In this document: piece after piece, positions 3,129 through 49,867 of the stretch
How the letters are laid out: the number at the start of each line of letters is the position of its first letter
How positions within the stretch are numbered: position 1 is the stretch's first letter
DNA from: Verrucomicrobiota bacterium
GTDB taxonomy: Bacteria > Verrucomicrobiota > Verrucomicrobiia > Opitutales > UBA953
Reading direction: 5' to 3'
Assembly: GCA_026397965.1 (NCBI GenBank)
Contig: JAPLTU010000048.1
Coordinates: forward strand, 1-64,000
DNA: 64,000 nt
The notes under the pieces: generated by a model
Seen by the model: only the letters and a program-made list of their open reading frames with translations
Database searches by the model: none
What the model was told of the DNA's origin: nothing
Program-made: the position numbers and the translations under genes

Positions 3129-3161
3129 GGGGGAAGATTTCAAGGAGAAAGCGCGACGCGC

Positions 3162-3296
3162 GGCGGAGACGCGCGTTAGAGGCTCAGAGGCCCAGAGGCT
3201 CGGTTGATCAGAACGAGGCAGACACTAGTTGACCGGTTGACCAGTGGGCCAGTTGGCGAGGGAGGCAAGGGAGAGGCTCAGAGGCTCGGTTGATCA
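3162..3296. repeat. Left ~135-bp imperfect direct repeat flanking the DUF3800 locus
   Basis: This begins GGCGGAGACGCG and includes GTTAGAGGCTCAGAGGC, CTCGGTTGATCAGAACGAG, GTTGACCGGTTGACCAGTG and GGCCAGTTG, closing with GAGGCTCGGTTGATCA. The same blocks in the same order recur at 4145-4290. Each copy also carries an internal repeat of GAGGCTCAGAGGCTCGGTTG. No coding signal is seen here. Confidence 0.82.
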
Positions 3297-3383
3297 AAGC
3301 ACACAAAGATGCAGAATATCCTCAGGGAAAAGTGCTTAGGGCGAAGGAATTGCGCAGCAGAGAGCGTAGGTTGGGAATGGGGG

Positions 3384-3998
3384 ATGGAATCCACGCACCT
3401 TTACCTAGACGAAGCAGGCAATTTTGATTTCGGTCCTAATGGTACGCGATGGCTAGTCTTGACCTGCGTAAAAATACCTTGGGATAGCCAACGGATTGGC
3501 CATCTTGCACAGCTCAAACACGAACTCTTGCTCGAAGGAATCGGTCTCGAATATTTTCATGCGAGTGAAGATAATCGACGTGTCCGACAAAGGTTCTTTG
3601 AGTCAATCGCACCTTGGCTCCCTCCGGCATCGGTCAAAGCCCGTGCGCTCGACAAGCGAGAAATCGATGAATCCTTGAGGACACCCGAACGCTTCTATCC
3701 TGCGTTCGTCAGTCCCCTAGTCGAACGACATATTAGCCAGAACAAGGAGCGTGTCTTCGTCTTCAGCGACACCCTTCCAGTCAATAAGAAGCGACGCGGC
3801 TTAGAAAAGGCCGTCGCAGCCGAACTTGCATCAAGGTCGGCTGGACTCGGGACGCACACCTTTCTTCACCATGCATCGAAATCTAACTTTGACCTCCAAA
3901 TCGCGGATTACTGCTGTTGGGCGATTTGGAGATCACTGACCAAGGGCGATAATCAAGCCCTCGAAATCCTCGGCCAAGCCGTTGATTTAAAAATATGA
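3384..3998 (+). CDS. DUF3800 domain protein
   Basis: A 204-aa protein with both hallmark segments of the DUF3800 family: an N-terminal HLYLDEAGNF (Asp9, Glu10) and a C-terminal LQIADYCCWAIWR (Asp175). The family is predicted to have an RNase H-like fold with acidic active-site residues. No biochemical role is established to my knowledge, so nuclease activity is a prediction only. I chose the ATG at 3384 because the family normally begins close to the YLDE motif and a G-rich stretch precedes it. An upstream start at 3309 would add 25 residues of unlikely sequence. Codon use is less GC-biased than in neighbours. The gene sits alone between direct repeats and a structured RNA begins 9 nt after its stop, which suggests a small mobile or horizontally acquired unit. 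Confidence 0.85.
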   Translation: MESTHLYLDEAGNFDFGPNGTRWLVLTCVKIPWDSQRIGHLAQLKHELLLEGIGLEYFHASEDNRRVRQRFFESIAPWLPPASVKARALDKREIDESLRTPERFYPAFVSPLVERHISQNKERVFVFSDTLPVNKKRRGLEKAVAAELASRSAGLGTHTFLHHASKSNFDLQIADYCCWAIWRSLTKGDNQALEILGQAVDLKI

Positions 3999-4006
3999 AA
4001 AAATGA

Positions 4007-4059
4007 CCGCCCCAGCTATCCTAACGGAAGAGACCCTTGGTCTCTTATCACTGGGGCGG
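4007..4059 (+). ncRNA. Two-stem structured RNA element directly downstream of the DUF3800 gene
   Basis: A perfect 9-bp outer stem CCGCCCCAG/CTGGGGCGG (4007-4015 with 4051-4059) encloses a perfect 8-bp hairpin AAGAGACC-CTT-GGTCTCTT (4028-4046). The two are separated by an asymmetric internal loop of 12 and 4 nt. It starts 9 nt after the stop codon. Several published bacterial RNA motifs are named after DUF3800 because they occur beside such genes; I recall this but cannot check for a match. A rho-independent terminator is an alternative, but the T-run (TTTT at 4064-4067) is short and offset from the stem. Confidence 0.6.
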
Positions 4060-4144
4060 AACCTTTTCCGCAGGCCTTTCGACCCACAGCATAAGTAAAA
4101 CGTGCGACGATAATCTGAGCAAGCAGGGAAACTACTCAGGGCAC

Positions 4145-4290
4145 GGCGGAGATGCGAGTTAGAGGCTCAGAGGCTCGGTTGATCAGAACGAGACAACCAA
4201 TTAGTTGACCGGTTGATCAGTGGGCCAGTTGACAAGGGAGACAAGTTAGAGGCCCGGAGGCTCAGAGGCTCGGTTGATCAGAACGAGGCA
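4145..4290. repeat. Right ~135-bp imperfect direct repeat flanking the DUF3800 locus
   Basis: This begins GGCGGAGATGCGAG and carries the same ordered blocks as 3162-3296, with AGTTGACCGGTTGATCAGTG and GGCCAGTTGACAAGG in the middle and GAGGCTCGGTTGATCAG near the end. A further small hairpin, CGCGACC-AAA-GGTCGCG (4294-4310), follows at once. The 615 bases from 3999 to 4613 hold the RNA element, this repeat, the palindromes at 4409-4547 and the cysK terminator. I see no gene there. Confidence 0.82.
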
Positions 4291-4408
4291 GAGCGCGACC
4301 AAAGGTCGCGAGGGGGCACGTGGGCAAGGTGACATGGGGACACGGGGAGATACAGCGCACAAAGGGGGCAGCAGTGGGAGACCGGATGATTGGCTGGGCA
4401 GCATCAGA

Positions 4409-4547
4409 GGTAGGGGCGTGCGGCCCGCGCGCCCACGGATGACCGGGCCGGTCATCCCTACCAAAGACCCCAACATTAATCCCGGTTTCCGGTTTCCCTG
4501 TGAGTGGGTGAATCTAGGCAGCTAGGGCAGCATGTGGTGCTGCCCTA
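4409..4547. repeat. Second cluster of GGTAGGG/CCCTACC palindromic modules
   Basis: GGTAGGG (4409-4415) and CCCTACC (4456-4462) bracket two palindromes: GGGCGTGCGG-C-CCGCGCGCCC and GGATGACCG-GGC-CGGTCATCC (4437-4457). About 60 nt further is TAGGGCAGCA-TGTGG-TGCTGCCCTA (4523-4547). The TGACCGG and GGGCAGCA modules also occur at 1272-1352, so this is a repeat family with interchangeable hairpins. Confidence 0.75.
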
Positions 4548-4560
4548 CCCTCGAGACAAC

Positions 4561-4590
4561 AAAAAGGCCCGCGTCGTGAGACGCAGGCCT
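4561..4590 (-). terminator. Rho-independent terminator of cysK
   Basis: On the minus strand AGGCCTGCGTC-TCAC-GACGCGGGCCT forms a long stem with one mismatch, followed directly by TTTTT. It lies 24 nt after the cysK stop. Confidence 0.9.
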
Positions 4591-4613
4591 GAGGGACGAG
4601 CTGAGGTTTCGAA

Positions 4614-5591
4614 TTACGAAGCGGTCAGCGCGGTGACTTCAGCACGGACTTTCTCGGCCAAGGCAGTCGAGAGGTAGCGCTCGCTCGGGCTACAGGCGAT
4701 CGTCACGATACGCTTGCCGGCGTATTCCGGACGCTTGGCGAGCTGAAGCGCGGCCCAGATATTAGCACCGGCAGAGATACCAACCGCGAGGCCTTCGCGA
4801 ATCGAGACTTCCTGGGCCATGGCGAAGGCGTCTTCGTTGGAGACCAGAATGACTTCATCGATTAGGGAGATATCGCAGTTCTTCGGGACGAAACCGGCGC
4901 CGATGCCTTGGATCTTATGAGGAGCGGGCTGGACGGGCTGGCCGGCCATGGTCTGGGTGATGACTGGAGAGGCGGTGGGTTCGACGGCAATGGCGCGGAA
5001 CTTTGGGTTCTTACCTTTGATGACCGAAGCGATGCCGGTAATGGTGCCGCCGGTGCCGACGCCCGAGACGATGGCATCTACTTTGCCTTCGGTGTCTTCC
5101 CAGATTTCGACCGCCGTGGTGCGACGGTGCACTTCGGGGTTAGCAGGGTTGTCGAACTGCATGGGCATGTAAGCATTGGCACCGATTTCATCGCGGAGCT
5201 GCGTCGCACGCTCGATGGCACCGCGCATGCCCTTGGCCCCAGGCGTTAACACGATTTCAGCACCCAAGAGACGCAATAAAACCCGGCGCTCGATGGACAT
5301 CGTTTCAGGCATGGTGAGAACGCAGCGGTAACCGCGGGCGGCGGCCACGAAGGCCAAGGCAATACCGGTGTTACCCGAGGTTGGCTCGACGATCGTACCC
5401 CCTGGCTTGAGGCGCCCGTCACGCTCAGCGGCGTCGATCATGGCCCGACCGATGCGGTCCTTGACGCTCGAAAGCGGGTTAAAGAATTCGAGCTTTACCA
5501 AAACTTCGGCATGAAGGCCTTCGGTAACTTTATTGAGCCGCACGAGGGGCGTGTGACCGATGGTATCAAGGACGCTATTGTAGATGGCCAT
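4614..5591 (-). CDS. cysK: Cysteine synthase A (O-acetylserine sulfhydrylase)
   Basis: A 325-aa PLP enzyme that makes L-cysteine from O-acetylserine and sulfide in the cytoplasm. The pyridoxal-phosphate lysine is in [11 protein letters not shown]. The substrate loop [10 protein letters not shown], the phosphate-binding GTGGTITG and the C-terminal [11 protein letters not shown] segment are all present, and the length is normal for the family. The N-terminus [19 protein letters not shown] matches the usual CysK start. No Shine-Dalgarno sequence is visible. It is a single gene between its own terminator and that of infA, with about 90 nt upstream for a promoter. Confidence 0.96.
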
Positions 5592-6045: not shown

Positions 6046-6591
6046 ATGGATGGCGATACGCCCACTCCCCGCCCCGGCTTAATTTGTCCCTTTGAAAAGC
6101 TACGACCTTCCCAGTTGGTGCGGGACGATGCTTTTTACATGTCATTGGCCTTTAACCTAGCTGTGGATGCATGGAGAATCGATGAAGTGCCGATTGGGGC
6201 GATCATCGAACGCGGAGGAGAGATCATCGCGGCGGCGCACAATGAGGTCGAACGTGCCAACGACCCCACCGCTCACGCCGAGATGCTGGCCATCACCCAA
6301 GCGGCGAAGAAAATCGGGGACTGGCGGCTCAACGAGTGCAACCTTTACGTCACCAAGGAGCCCTGCCCCATGTGTTCGGGGGCGACGATCATGAGCCGGC
6401 TCAACCGGGTGATCTACGCCTGGGGCGACCCCAAAATGGGCTGCATGGGTGGGGCGACCGAACTCCATAGCCTGCCCAAGCTCAATCACCGCGTACAAGT
6501 GACCTCTGGCGTCCTCGAAGCACCGTGTCGCGAGATTCTCCAAGCCTACTTCAACATGAAGCGAGGGCGCGATTCTTCCGCCCCGGCTTGA
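6046..6591 (+). CDS. tadA: tRNA-specific adenosine deaminase, TadA family
   Basis: A 181-aa zinc-dependent deaminase, predicted to convert adenosine to inosine at the wobble position of tRNA-Arg(ACG). The zinc and catalytic motifs are in place: TAHAEM (His77, Glu79) and EPCPMCSGA (Cys107, Cys110). The lines [23 protein letters not shown] and [12 protein letters not shown] closely follow TadA and not cytidine or guanine deaminases. The N-terminus is about 25 residues longer than in E. coli TadA and its start is uncertain; a TTG at 6025 is also possible. It is divergent from infA. Confidence 0.88.
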
Positions 6592-6620: not shown

Positions 6621-7355
6621 ATGCTTCGACGCGACTTCATCGGGAAAGCTTCGCTCGCCGCCGCCGCCCTCGGAGCCACTTCCCTTTCCGCCCAAACCTC
6701 TTCCACCAAAACCATGAGCTACACCCTCGCCCCCCTGCCTTACCCACATACCGCCCTGGAGCCGCACATCGATCAAGCGACGATGGAGATCCACCACGGT
6801 AAGCACCACAACGCCTACGTGACCAACCTCAACGCCGCGCTGGCTAAAGAAGCCGGCTTCAGTGCCCCGGCCGACGTCGAAGTCTTGATTGCCGATCTCA
6901 CCAAAGTACCTGATGCGATTCGCACCGCTGTCCGCAACAACGCCGGCGGCCACGCTAATCACACCTTCTTCTGGAACATCCTCTCTCCGAATGGTGGGGG
7001 TGAGCCCGTTGGCGCTTTGGGTGAAGCCCTCCAAAAAGCCTTTGGCGGACTTGAAGGTGAGAATGGATTAAAGGCGAAATTCAAAACCGCCGCGACCACG
7101 CGTTTCGGTTCCGGCTGGGCTTGGCTGATTGTCAAAGCCGACAAATCTCTCGCCGTCGTTTCCACCCCTAACCAAGACAGCCCGCTCATGAAAGGCATTG
7201 CCGACGTCAACGGAACGCCCGTCCTGGCGCTCGACGTCTGGGAACACGCTTATTATCTTAAATATCAGAATCGCCGTCCGGATTACGTCGACGCCTTCTG
7301 GAAGCTGGTTGATTGGAAGAAGGCGGACGCGATCTACGCGCAGGCCATCGCCTAA
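6621..7355 (+). CDS. Superoxide dismutase (Mn/Fe type) with a twin-arginine signal
   Basis: A 244-aa protein. Residues 1-24 ([20 protein letters not shown] onward) form a Tat signal: RR followed by DFIGK, a weakly hydrophobic Ala-rich stretch, then LSA. The mature part is a complete Fe/Mn superoxide dismutase, with metal ligands in [12 protein letters not shown] (His58), [10 protein letters not shown], and LDVWEHAYY (Asp and His). The NQDSPLM segment carries the Gln seen in manganese-type enzymes. Tat export would put a folded, metal-loaded enzyme in the periplasm. An in-frame ATG at residue 32 ([12 protein letters not shown]) could give a cytoplasmic form. A strong terminator follows. Confidence 0.93.
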
Positions 7356-14452: not shown

Positions 14453-16786
14453 TCAGCTCTGTGCCAACTCGCGTAACTTGGTCAAATCCAGCTTACCCGT
14501 GCCCAAAATAGGGATGACGGGCACCTTTTTGAACACCTTGGGAATCCAAAGATTGGCGAGGCCTTCGGCGGCCAGCGCGTTACGAACGGTTTCGACATCA
14601 AGATCATCGACGTGCAAGACCACCAGTTGTTCGCCCTTGATCGCTTCGGCGGCGCTGGAGACCGCGATTTTGACTTCCAGGGAAGCGATTAGGCCTAAGA
14701 CCTTTCGCAAAGCATCTTCGACTGTGCCGTGTGGGACCATTTCGCCACCGATCTTGGAAAACCGGGAAAGCCGGCCGGCCAGATGTAAAAACCCTTCGTC
14801 ATCCATCCGACCCAGATCTCCGGTGCGATACCAACCATCGGGGGTCATCGCCTTGGCGGTTTGCTCGGCATCGAGATAACCCATAAAAATATTAGCCCCA
14901 CGGACTTCGAGCAGACCAACCTGATCGCTCGGCAAGACCGCTTCGGTCGTCGGATCAATGAACCGGACGGCGACACCGATCACCGGGCGACCCACCGAAC
15001 CACGCACCGCACCCACCCAAACGCCGCCGGGGGCCTCTCCTGGATCAGGACGATCAGGGACATTTACGGAGAGTACCGGGCTGGTTTCGGTGATACCATA
15101 GCCCTCAAGCATGGGCGTCTCGAGCGTATCGTTGAACGTATCGATGAGATCGGCCGGACATTTCTCGGCACCGACTACCGCCCAATTTAGGGTGGCAAAA
15201 TCTGACGCCGACGCACGTCGTACATACGGGCGGAGGAAGGTCGGCGTGCCCACCACCACGGTGACTTTTTCTTCCTTGATCGCCTTGACTGCCGCGGCTG
15301 AATCTAAAGGCGAAGGCAAAGTCACCAGACGAGGGGAACGCGAAAGGCAGTACCAGAGACCGATGGTGAATCCGAAACTATGAAAGACCGGCAGACTGCT
15401 GAGGAAAACTCCGTCTTCGGGCAAGATTTCGGCATTTTCGATCTGGCGGAGATTCGCCAAAAGATTGCGGTGCGATAAACGGACTCCCTTAGGCTGACCG
15501 GAACTTCCACTGGTAAAGAGTAAGGCGGCTTCGGTTTCCCCTCCCCGCTTCGGCAGACCCATGCATAGCGGAAGCCAAGAACCTGGAAGACAACGAATCA
15601 GACCGACGCGCCACCCGAGACTGAGGCGCGAAGATTTCGTCATGAAATCAGCGACATCGAGCACCTGATCTCCCCAAGGAAAATCTGGCGAACGTTCGGA
15701 AAGTTTCTCGCGGAAAGCTCCCGCCGTGATCACGCTGTCGACTTGGGCGCGTTGAAGACACGATACAGCCTGCTCGCGGCCGAGCGAGAAATTCAGGTTC
15801 ACGGGGACTTTGTCGGCCAAAAGACATCCCAGATTGGCGACCGTGGCGCAGATACCCGGCGGCAAGACAATCGCCACGCGCTGCGCGGTCGTGCGGCGCT
15901 TAAGTTCGCCAGCGAAGGCCCAACTCAACGCCAGCAAAGTGGAAGCGGCGAACTCCCGCCGGCCAGACGCCAGGTCGACCATGGCGATTTTGCCACCCTT
16001 CTGGGCGAGCCCTCGGACCATTTCGCGACTGAGGTGACCCTCGAGCGAAGGCCGCATCGCAAAAGCCTCGGAGGCAAGCTCCAGCATGCGGAGGCGAGTC
16101 TGCGCATGTTCTTCGGCCAGAAAAGGCTTACCGATAACCACGCCAATCGGTCGAGGAAAGTGCTGTGGCAATTTCCAGAAAAACTTACCTTCGCTGAAAC
16201 TCAGGAACGAACCCCACATGCCATCGATGGCGATGGGTAAGATCGGAGCACCCCCGCGTCGAGCGATCAGTTCAAATCCCTTGCGCAGCTGCATGAGACT
16301 GCCATTGCGCGTCAAACTACCCTCGGGGAAGATGCAGACAATCTCGCCACGCTTGAGCGCTTCAGCCGATTTATAAATGGCATCCTTGGCTTTGGATTCT
16401 GAAACCGGAATCGTCCCCATCAGGCGGCACATAAAGCCCAAGAATTTCTGGCTCTCGAAACCTTCCCAAGAAAGAAACCGCACCGGACGAGGCGAAAGCA
16501 CGCCGACGACCAACACGTCGGCGTACGCAACGTGATTCGAGAGTACCAAAGCCGGACCGGTTTCGGGGATGTTCTCGAGGCCGCGCACCCGAATCTTATA
16601 AAAGCACTTCAAGACCAGCCAACAGAAGGTCTGCAGGGCGCAATAACCCATAGACATCGACGCATGGCGACGCGGGGCTCGCCAGGCGAAGGCCAGCAAG
16701 AAGACAATCACCGCGAAAGCCGCCCCGGAGGCCAGCGCGACGAGCACCATCTGTAATAAAGATAAGATAAAACTAAGGAGGGGCAC
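14453..16786 (-). CDS. aas: Bifunctional acyltransferase / acyl-ACP synthetase (Aas-like)
   Basis: A 777-aa fusion. Two N-terminal membrane segments precede a PlsC-type 1-acylglycerophosphate acyltransferase domain with the HX4D motif SNHVAYADV (His85, Asp90) and FPEGSLTRNG. The C-terminal ~500 residues are an AMP-forming acyl ligase with LLFTSGSSGQPKG, VVGAEKCP, GYGITETSPV and DGWYRTGDLGRMDDEGF. E. coli Aas has the same order and re-acylates lysophospholipids via acyl-ACP. The start codon is a GTG at 16786; an ATG 12 codons in is possible. It is divergent from the peptide-transport operon and upstream of glgP. Confidence 0.92.
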   Translation of the reverse strand: MPLLSFILSLLQMVLVALASGAAFAVIVFLLAFAWRAPRRHASMSMGYCALQTFCWLVLKCFYKIRVRGLENIPETGPALVLSNHVAYADVLVVGVLSPRPVRFLSWEGFESQKFLGFMCRLMGTIPVSESKAKDAIYKSAEALKRGEIVCIFPEGSLTRNGSLMQLRKGFELIARRGGAPILPIAIDGMWGSFLSFSEGKFFWKLPQHFPRPIGVVIGKPFLAEEHAQTRLRMLELASEAFAMRPSLEGHLSREMVRGLAQKGGKIAMVDLASGRREFAASTLLALSWAFAGELKRRTTAQRVAIVLPPGICATVANLGCLLADKVPVNLNFSLGREQAVSCLQRAQVDSVITAGAFREKLSERSPDFPWGDQVLDVADFMTKSSRLSLGWRVGLIRCLPGSWLPLCMGLPKRGGETEAALLFTSGSSGQPKGVRLSHRNLLANLRQIENAEILPEDGVFLSSLPVFHSFGFTIGLWYCLSRSPRLVTLPSPLDSAAAVKAIKEEKVTVVVGTPTFLRPYVRRASASDFATLNWAVVGAEKCPADLIDTFNDTLETPMLEGYGITETSPVLSVNVPDRPDPGEAPGGVWVGAVRGSVGRPVIGVAVRFIDPTTEAVLPSDQVGLLEVRGANIFMGYLDAEQTAKAMTPDGWYRTGDLGRMDDEGFLHLAGRLSRFSKIGGEMVPHGTVEDALRKVLGLIASLEVKIAVSSAAEAIKGEQLVVLHVDDLDVETVRNALAAEGLANLWIPKVFKKVPVIPILGTGKLDLTKLRELAQS

Positions 16787-49485: not shown

Positions 49486-49853
49486 GGGGGTGTTCCGGAT
49501 TCGATTCCAATCAAGATATCGCGACGGCATGCAGAGGGTAGTCAGTAACCTCTTAAATCCAACTGGCAGCACTATAACTGCTAAAAACACCATCACGTTC
49601 GAGAACGACAACGTTCTCGCGCTCGCAGCCTAAGTACTGCGACAAGCCCCAAGGTACGCCTACAGCCTTGGATCAGCTTGGTTAACGTGGGCAATCCCCT
49701 CCTCTAGTTGTTATCTCCAGGGTAAGTGAGAATACAGATAGGCCGCACGGGTGCTCATCTCCAAACGCGGTCGAGATCAATGATGAAGCTACGCATGTAG
49801 AAGTTACGACGTAAGGATAGGAAGACGCGGGTTCGACTCCCGCCACCTCCACC
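49486..49853 (+). ncRNA. ssrA: Transfer-messenger RNA (tmRNA)
   Basis: The ends fold as a tRNA-like acceptor: GGGGGTG (49486-49492) pairs with CACCTCC (49844-49850). A GGGTTCGACTCCC T-arm (49830-49842) is next to the 3' end, and the 5' end carries the usual TTCCGGATTCGA. Inside, a reading frame resumes at GCT (49580) and encodes AKNTITFENDNVLALAA before TAA (49631-49633), a typical proteolysis tag ending in LAA. The full CCA is not encoded (ACC followed by C). It rescues stalled ribosomes with SmpB. The small open frame starting upstream at 49427 is not a separate gene. Confidence 0.96.
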
Positions 49854-49867
49854 CTTTGAGAAGTTAC

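Follow-up and report, generated by a model that had tools for sequence, protein, structure and literature searches.

A conserved three-way-junction RNA convergent on DUF3800 genes, with gene-less copies in phages, suggests an RNA-restrained nuclease module

What is the structured element that directly follows a DUF3800 gene in a 64,000-nt stretch of a Verrucomicrobiota genome (JAPLTU010000048.1, positions 1 to 64,000; hereafter the window), and what might it do for that gene? RNAs associated with DUF3800 genes, reportedly described in 2017, are known only computationally, and no function is known to be established for them. A sequence-only reading of the window had described a strong two-stem RNA with an asymmetric internal loop past the stop codon, beside a gene for a predicted RNase H-like protein, and had offered a guide, a substrate or a toxin-antitoxin-like arrangement as possible roles.

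The stems were confirmed in the 3′ flank of the gene, with P1 starting 8 nt past the stop codon TGA (3996-3998) and the arms of P2 at 4029-4035 and 4039-4045 (Table 1). The plus strand of the element had a folding energy of -31.1 kcal/mol (z -3.2), which 1 of 200 shuffles equalled, and the minus strand, taken from 3988 to 4092 to include the extra hairpin P0, at -48.1 kcal/mol (z -4.9; none of 200 shuffles as good). Because the minus-strand fold is the stronger, the Rfam match described below lies on the minus strand, and R1, a model made from the RNAs of homologues of the window's DUF3800 gene, scored 91 bits on the minus strand versus 14 on the plus strand, the functional strand is the minus strand, read from 4066 to 3998 and convergent on the DUF3800 stop codon. 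The plus-strand reading was ruled out by these three results together with the GNRA loops of relatives. The element is a three-way junction of P1, P2 and P3: the outer and inner stems of the sequence-only reading stood, but its asymmetric internal loop holds a third hairpin (4019-4021 paired with 4026-4028), and the opposite strand, the convergence on the gene and the junction had all been missed. From 5′ to 3′ the core consists of AAAGGUU, the P1 arm CCGCCCCAGU, GAUA, the P2 hairpin, the P3 hairpin, UA, the returning P1 arm GCUGGGGCGG and the terminal UCAUUUUUU. Hairpins like P0, with GAGA, GAAA or GCAA loops, also occur in other genomes of the source genus. The element occurs once in the source genome, and a multi-copy interspersed repeat was thus ruled out.

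Table 1. Positions of the DUF3800 gene, the RNA and associated features in the window.
Feature	Position	Strand	Evidence or remark
Inserted unit absent from related genomes	3153..4556		Empty sites in at least eight same-genus genomes
Direct repeat, left copy, about 140 bp	3158..3296	+	80% identical to 4141-4280
DUF3800 gene	3309..3998	+	Pfam PF12686, E 1.4e-10; 229 aa from ORF start; conserved part from ATG 3384
Small RNA core (R1 family)	3998..4066	-	R1 91.3 bits; sub-threshold full-length match to RF02968; covariation
P1 3′ arm GCUGGGGCGG	4007..4016	-	Covariation
P3 hairpin UCC-GUUA-GGA	4019..4028	-	3/3 pairs with two-sided changes; GNRA tetraloop in most relatives
P2 hairpin AGAGACC-AAG-GGUCUCU	4029..4045	-	5/7 pairs with two-sided changes
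P1 5′ arm CCGCCCCAGU	4050..4059	-	8/10 P1 pairs with two-sided changes (49 distinct sequences)
P0, extra 5′ hairpin of this genus (UGUGGGUC-GAAA-GGCCUGCG)	4069..4088	-	Minus-strand fold
Weak candidate promoter TTGCTC-17-TTTACT	4094..4122	-	p 0.455 in the window, not significant alone
Direct repeat, right copy	4141..4280	+	80% identical to 3158-3296

Comparison with the Rfam DUF3800 motifs, which had been suggested from the sequence, proved relevant. At a permissive threshold, the minus strand of the window matched DUF3800-IX (RF02968) over the entire model (positions 1-67 of 67) at 26.3 bits (E 9e-4), short of the curated gathering cut-off of 36.8 bits, which was reached by none of the homologous loci tested; R1, in turn, picked out the exact position in true DUF3800-IX loci, although with low scores (13-18 bits). 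Because of the sub-cut-off score and the weak R1 scores on true members, the RNA family of the window is, on sequence scores, a sister of DUF3800-IX and not a member of it. The two families share the three-way-junction layout, a full-length register and a UAG ahead of the P1 3′ arm, and in the window and nearly all homologues the RNA 3′ end lies at the stop codon of a convergent DUF3800 gene, as it does in the true DUF3800-IX members examined (L029, L143-L145 and L147); however, the partner protein belongs to another DUF3800 clade. DUF3800-V (RF02964) is also convergent on a DUF3800 stop codon but is a 96-nt motif of unlike sequence, unmatched by R1. In one Elusimicrobia locus (L060:1501-1690), an R1 RNA is directly preceded on its own strand by a DUF3800-V RNA (67.3 bits), both behind one promoter; it looks as though a more recent module had displaced an older gene and kept the older gene's RNA. 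The sole match in the window at the Rfam gathering threshold was a tmRNA gene (49486-49854, plus strand).

To place the element among its relatives, 27 DUF3800 homologues were drawn from a species-level genome set; these span over a dozen phyla (Verrucomicrobiota, Planctomycetota, Proteobacteria, Desulfobacterota, Actinobacteria, Chloroflexi, Ignavibacteria, Campylobacterota, Saccharibacteria, Gracilibacteria, Caldisericota, Elusimicrobia and others). For each homologue with a long enough flank, the RNA was found directly past the stop codon on the opposite strand, which, with the Pfam assignment of the gene, bears out the earlier claim of a conserved structured RNA tied to DUF3800; in two loci (L015 and L023) the flank runs off the contig. 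The exception, L026, carries the RNA upstream of the gene and in the same direction, behind a TTGACA-17-TATAAT promoter. The same combination of DUF3800 and RNA was recovered from ten viral contigs, two Phaeobacter plasmids, the Ruegeria TM1040 megaplasmid and Gordonia phage Kenna (among these, the RNA of L107 is recognisable by eye only and L108 is cut); most loci come from metagenome-assembled genomes, and viral assignments are those of the source collection. Copies of the RNA are mostly one per genome. In a Thermoleophilia genome (L076), two R1 RNAs lie 9 kb apart (7243-7311 and 16145-16213) with a third elsewhere in the genome, and one R1 RNA there converges on no DUF3800 gene; in L094 (7172-9028), the neighbours of an R1 RNA are a uracil-DNA-glycosylase-family gene, on which it converges, and a DUF3800 of another clade, from which it diverges.

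Covariation in the flanks of homologues, proposed as a check in the sequence-only reading, was strong. In a MAFFT alignment of 24 homologues, 14 of the 20 pairs had two-sided changes, and RNAalifold independently recovered the identical 20 pairs of the hand-drawn structure. Among 52 relatives (49 distinct), 97.8% of pair cells were paired and 16/20 pairs showed two-sided changes, none of 500 shuffles matching on any measure, and sliding the partner column by one lowered pairing to 50-58%; the 24-sequence result is the cleaner test because the larger alignment was fitted to the R1 model. The single-stranded letters GAYAAGA and UAG are conserved across phyla, and in the 49 distinct cores most of the unpaired sequence is conserved, while variation falls in the paired parts. 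An intrinsic terminator common to converging genes would account for the GC-rich stem and the T run on the RNA strand, but this origin is extremely improbable: a simple terminator scan found none, the junction with its GAYAAGA and UAG letters is conserved across phyla, as are the termini, relatives have a promoter of their own for the RNA, and solo copies occur in phage tRNA clusters. The element is thus something other than a plain terminator, and neither outcome named in the sequence-only reading as refuting it, a lack of covariation or conservation and plain terminator behaviour, was observed.

Relatives also fix the strand. P3 tetraloops on the minus strand were GNRA in 25 of 39 cases and UNCG in 2, versus 1 and 0 on the complement, and 15 of 32 relatives, with 1.6 expected (binomial about 8e-12), have just ahead of AAAGG a sigma70-like promoter with p<=0.05 relative to composition shuffles; the candidate promoter of the L002 RNA has p 0.05. 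These loops and promoters therefore set the RNA strand as minus. In L041 (1501-1566), R1 scored 31.9 bits on a tRNA gene, the GGUUC end and stem of the RNA resembling a tRNA arm, perhaps by chance, and R1 matches below about 40 bits were therefore trusted only beside a DUF3800 gene. Since the RNA converges on the gene and ends at its stop codon in the R1 family, in DUF3800-IX and in DUF3800-V, the transcript could conceivably dampen the DUF3800 mRNA in cis by interference or pairing, with the fold merely stabilising it. We consider such an antisense role improbable: the RNA of L026 lies upstream and runs in the direction of the gene, the solo RNAs of phages and genomes have no gene to oppose, and compensatory changes over most of the 20 pairs, together with the conserved junction letters, exceed what pairing with the mRNA needs.

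The window protein was modelled with AF2 at pLDDT 90 and pTM 0.89. The best fold match of this predicted model was RNase HII (1eke_B; Z 11.7, 162 residues aligned, 3.1 Å), followed by RNase HIII and, at Z about 9, by the PIWI domains of Argonaute, in agreement with the RNase H-like protein anticipated from the sequence; Foldseek alone gave weak matches, an NCBIfam search returned no match, and a sequence search of solved structures found no relative. Invariant in 20 homologues were D9, G12, EYFHASE (56-62), D175 and W179, with E10 nearly so, and the DE-[AGS]-G of this family is taken by us to resemble the DEAGRG of RNase HII; three homologues (L022, L027 and L028) lack the acidic residue after the fourth core strand. 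On this model, the window DUF3800 adopts an RNase HII fold, and the protein is a probable nuclease. An RNase H fold of DUF3800 was noted earlier, and DUF3800 has been found with Cas12a2 (PMC10910872). The source genome has a second DUF3800 gene of another clade (G000:C53:594-1277; L101), and no R1 or Rfam RNA was found beside it.

In the window, the DUF3800 gene and its RNA were inserted together between umuD and cysK, as one module. The gap between these genes is 30-125 bp in the empty-site genomes, and the window holds a 1.4 kb insert with the gene, the RNA and two direct repeats, which may have mediated insertion; sequence related to these repeats was found elsewhere in the genus. Homology between the window and L002 extends only from the start codon to just past the upstream region of the RNA (3382-4140). 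The insertion, the start-to-stop swap of the ORF between conserved flanks in L135 and the copies on both sides of the gene in L002 and L135 are compatible with a DNA recombination site or mobile-element end, whose hairpin DUF3800 would recognise as a recombinase. This is nevertheless quite improbable, given that genomes usually have one copy, that terminal inverted repeats are absent and the flanking copies in L002 are different RNA types, that GNRA loops and promoters indicate an RNA, and that in phage tRNA clusters the solo copies sit immediately next to tRNAs. A transposon terminal inverted repeat, as which the two inward-facing copies of L002 might be read, was likewise rejected; the upstream copy there is the remnant of another DUF3800 module. 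In Gordonia phage Kenna (L114), DUF3800 (gene 54) and the RNA immediately follow the immunity repressor, within a cassette that related phages exchange. An exact empty site in Gordonia phage Getalong was considered and rejected; because the entire immunity cassette is swapped there, no unit border can be read.

The neighbours of the window module are umuDC and cysK, with no restriction-modification (R-M) gene, but a large subset of relatives is embedded in R-M loci in the manner of PrrC. The order HsdS-DUF3800-RNA-HsdR was found in L072 and L074, and a type III-like mod-DUF3800-RNA-res order in L071; the module lies ahead of HsdR in L077, after HsdS in L073, and after Eco57I-type methylases in L084 and L086, in one case with Mrr or helicase genes. 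Other neighbours include HsdM (L082), a DNA methylase (L083) and a MutH-like nuclease (L087). Among 16 HsdR genes in 23 genomes, 5 were within 5 kb of the RNA versus 0.06 expected (P about 7e-9), although three of these five genomes are Syntrophaceae and so not fully independent. Roughly half of the loci, the window included, are away from R-M genes; further settings are a Mu-like prophage (L091) and the vicinity of the immunity repressor in Gordonia phages.

Gene and RNA are not lost equally. A second clade in the source genus, DUF3800-b (33% identical), has its own RNA-b, which is 97-100% identical between genomes whose DUF3800-b coding sequences are 66-92% identical. RNA-b is intact where only the last 8-19 codons of the gene are left (the upstream copy of L002, the second copy of L135, L137 and L097); in L093, too, the RNA is intact and the DUF3800 gene reduced to a remnant, and L095 and L081 have broken DUF3800 genes with intact RNAs. 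An intact gene of the R1-associated clade lacking the RNA was not found among loci with enough flank. This asymmetry is supportive and not proof, because the gene, about ten times the length of the RNA, is the larger target for damage. In L135 (5250-6310), the leader is identical and RNA-a is the same, and the whole ORF between them, from start to stop codon, has been exchanged for a DUF3800 of another clade. In a Caldisericota locus (L099), CRISPR repeats (4472-4633 and 6092-6155) lie 1.5 kb from a solo R1 RNA.

Solo RNAs were also obtained from phages. Viral contigs were scanned with a pattern demanding the conserved 5′ end of the RNA and then with R1, and elements above 40 bits were kept. 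In total, 20 elements were recovered, 19 of them solo, with no DUF3800 of the R1-associated clade in the fetched flanking DNA and no nearby ORF with a DE(S/A/G)G motif; collapsing near-identical phages left about 14 lineages with a solo RNA. The viral solo RNAs covary by themselves (97.6% paired, 13 of 20 pairs two-sided, 0/500 shuffles). Some neighbour genes for SSB, a DNA methyltransferase, terminase or head-tail proteins, and others are in or near tRNA clusters (L199, L200 and L213). Corynebacterium phage phi16 has two in a tRNA cluster, ending where tRNA-Asn and tRNA-Arg begin, and Corynebacterium phage PSonyx has one in a tRNA cluster ahead of tRNA-Arg; no DUF3800 was found near the RNAs of either phage. 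Two viral elements (L201 and L207) are less certain because each falls within a long ORF. The core pattern GAYAAGAR...AGGRTAG had no match in the viral contigs.

That phages carry the RNA without the enzyme suggests a defence system in which the RNA is the off-switch. Our main reading, to which we assign a probability of about one half, is that the DUF3800 protein is a putative nuclease held in check by the RNA, that the module serves defence and that phages carry the RNA as counter-defence. A small RNA gene of about 70-100 nt would be transcribed against DUF3800 and end at its stop codon; gene and RNA would be inherited as a single module, with the RNA binding and restraining the nuclease in the manner of a type III antitoxin. 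The module would serve for defence or addiction and, within R-M loci, often as a second line, its back-up nuclease firing, like PrrC, in response to phage disturbance of the cell; phages would neutralise it by carrying the RNA alone, some within tRNA clusters. From the comparative evidence we infer the binding of RNA to protein, the inhibition, the nuclease activity and its target, the toxicity and the phage counter-defence. Covariation, strand evidence, the constant link to the gene, the predicted RNase HII fold, the proximity to hsdR, the loss asymmetry and the solo phage RNAs all favour this reading. Against it stand the identical RNA beside another DUF3800 clade in L135, unexpected for a strictly specific inhibitor; the absence of tandem repeats and the usually downstream, convergent RNA, unlike type III systems; the roughly half of loci away from R-M genes; the two solo RNAs inside long ORFs; and the homologues without the acidic residue. 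Of the roles offered in the sequence-only reading, an antitoxin-like one is the direction in which the evidence leans, because gene-less RNAs occur in phages and genomes and RNA-less genes were not found.

The main rival would make the RNA a required cofactor, with DUF3800 active only as an RNA-protein complex, comparable to a small effector with a guide or scaffold RNA, and the phage copies acting as decoys that capture or redirect the protein. The constant one-to-one link and joint movement of gene and RNA would fit such a complex, as would the fold likeness to the Argonaute PIWI domain (Z about 9) and the occurrence of DUF3800 with Cas12a2 (PMC10910872). We nonetheless regard it as unlikely: no variable unpaired stretch resembling the guide of an OMEGA/TnpB-like RNA is apparent in the 49 distinct cores, the ends and junction of the RNA being conserved and its variable parts mostly base-paired, and the RNA is intact where the gene is down to its last 7-19 codons, although a cofactor alone would be useless after loss of the protein. 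The phage RNA would be a counter-defence under the inhibitor and the cofactor reading alike; what separates the two is whether DUF3800 can act on its own. Returning to the inhibitor reading, its extension to a widespread class of defence, in which a convergent three-way-junction RNA would restrain DUF3800, often as a guard of restriction, and many phage lineages would counter with solo RNAs, is put forward tentatively, as somewhat short of an even chance. The phage solo RNAs, the gene-loss asymmetry and the restriction setting lead to a testable function, an RNA-held nuclease with phage RNA counter-defence, and the named carriers (Phaeobacter piscinae plasmids, Ruegeria TM1040 and Corynebacterium phages phi16 and PSonyx) make a laboratory test possible.

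Among known systems, the proposed logic of a nuclease held by a structured RNA would be analogous to type III toxin-antitoxin systems (ToxIN, CptIN and TenpIN); an RNA mimic is a known phage countermeasure against such a system. The antitoxin there is a tandem repeat, whereas here one element accompanies each gene and usually each genome; the RNA there is upstream of the toxin, with a terminator between and one promoter, whereas here it is mostly downstream and convergent, with its own promoter, the type III-like order occurring in L026 only. In comparison with type III toxins (PMC5086642), the R1-linked protein has a predicted RNase HII-like fold; the best matches of the window protein were RNase HII/HIII and PIWI, and ToxN was absent from the match list, which does not exclude a ToxN fold. 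The accessory nuclease gene prrC is embedded within an hsd locus (PMC12707154), and the DUF3800 module may be likened to the anticodon nucleases PrrC and RloC, guardians of restriction, by its placement in R-M loci and not by sequence or fold; DUF3800, however, carries an RNA gene, and many copies are outside R-M loci. Finally, the TPR-DUF3800 protein found with Cas12a2 (PMC10910872) shares the DUF3800 domain, the RNase H fold and a setting of RNA-based defence, whereas the DUF3800 described here stands alone, without TPR or a CRISPR array, and comes with an RNA gene of its own.
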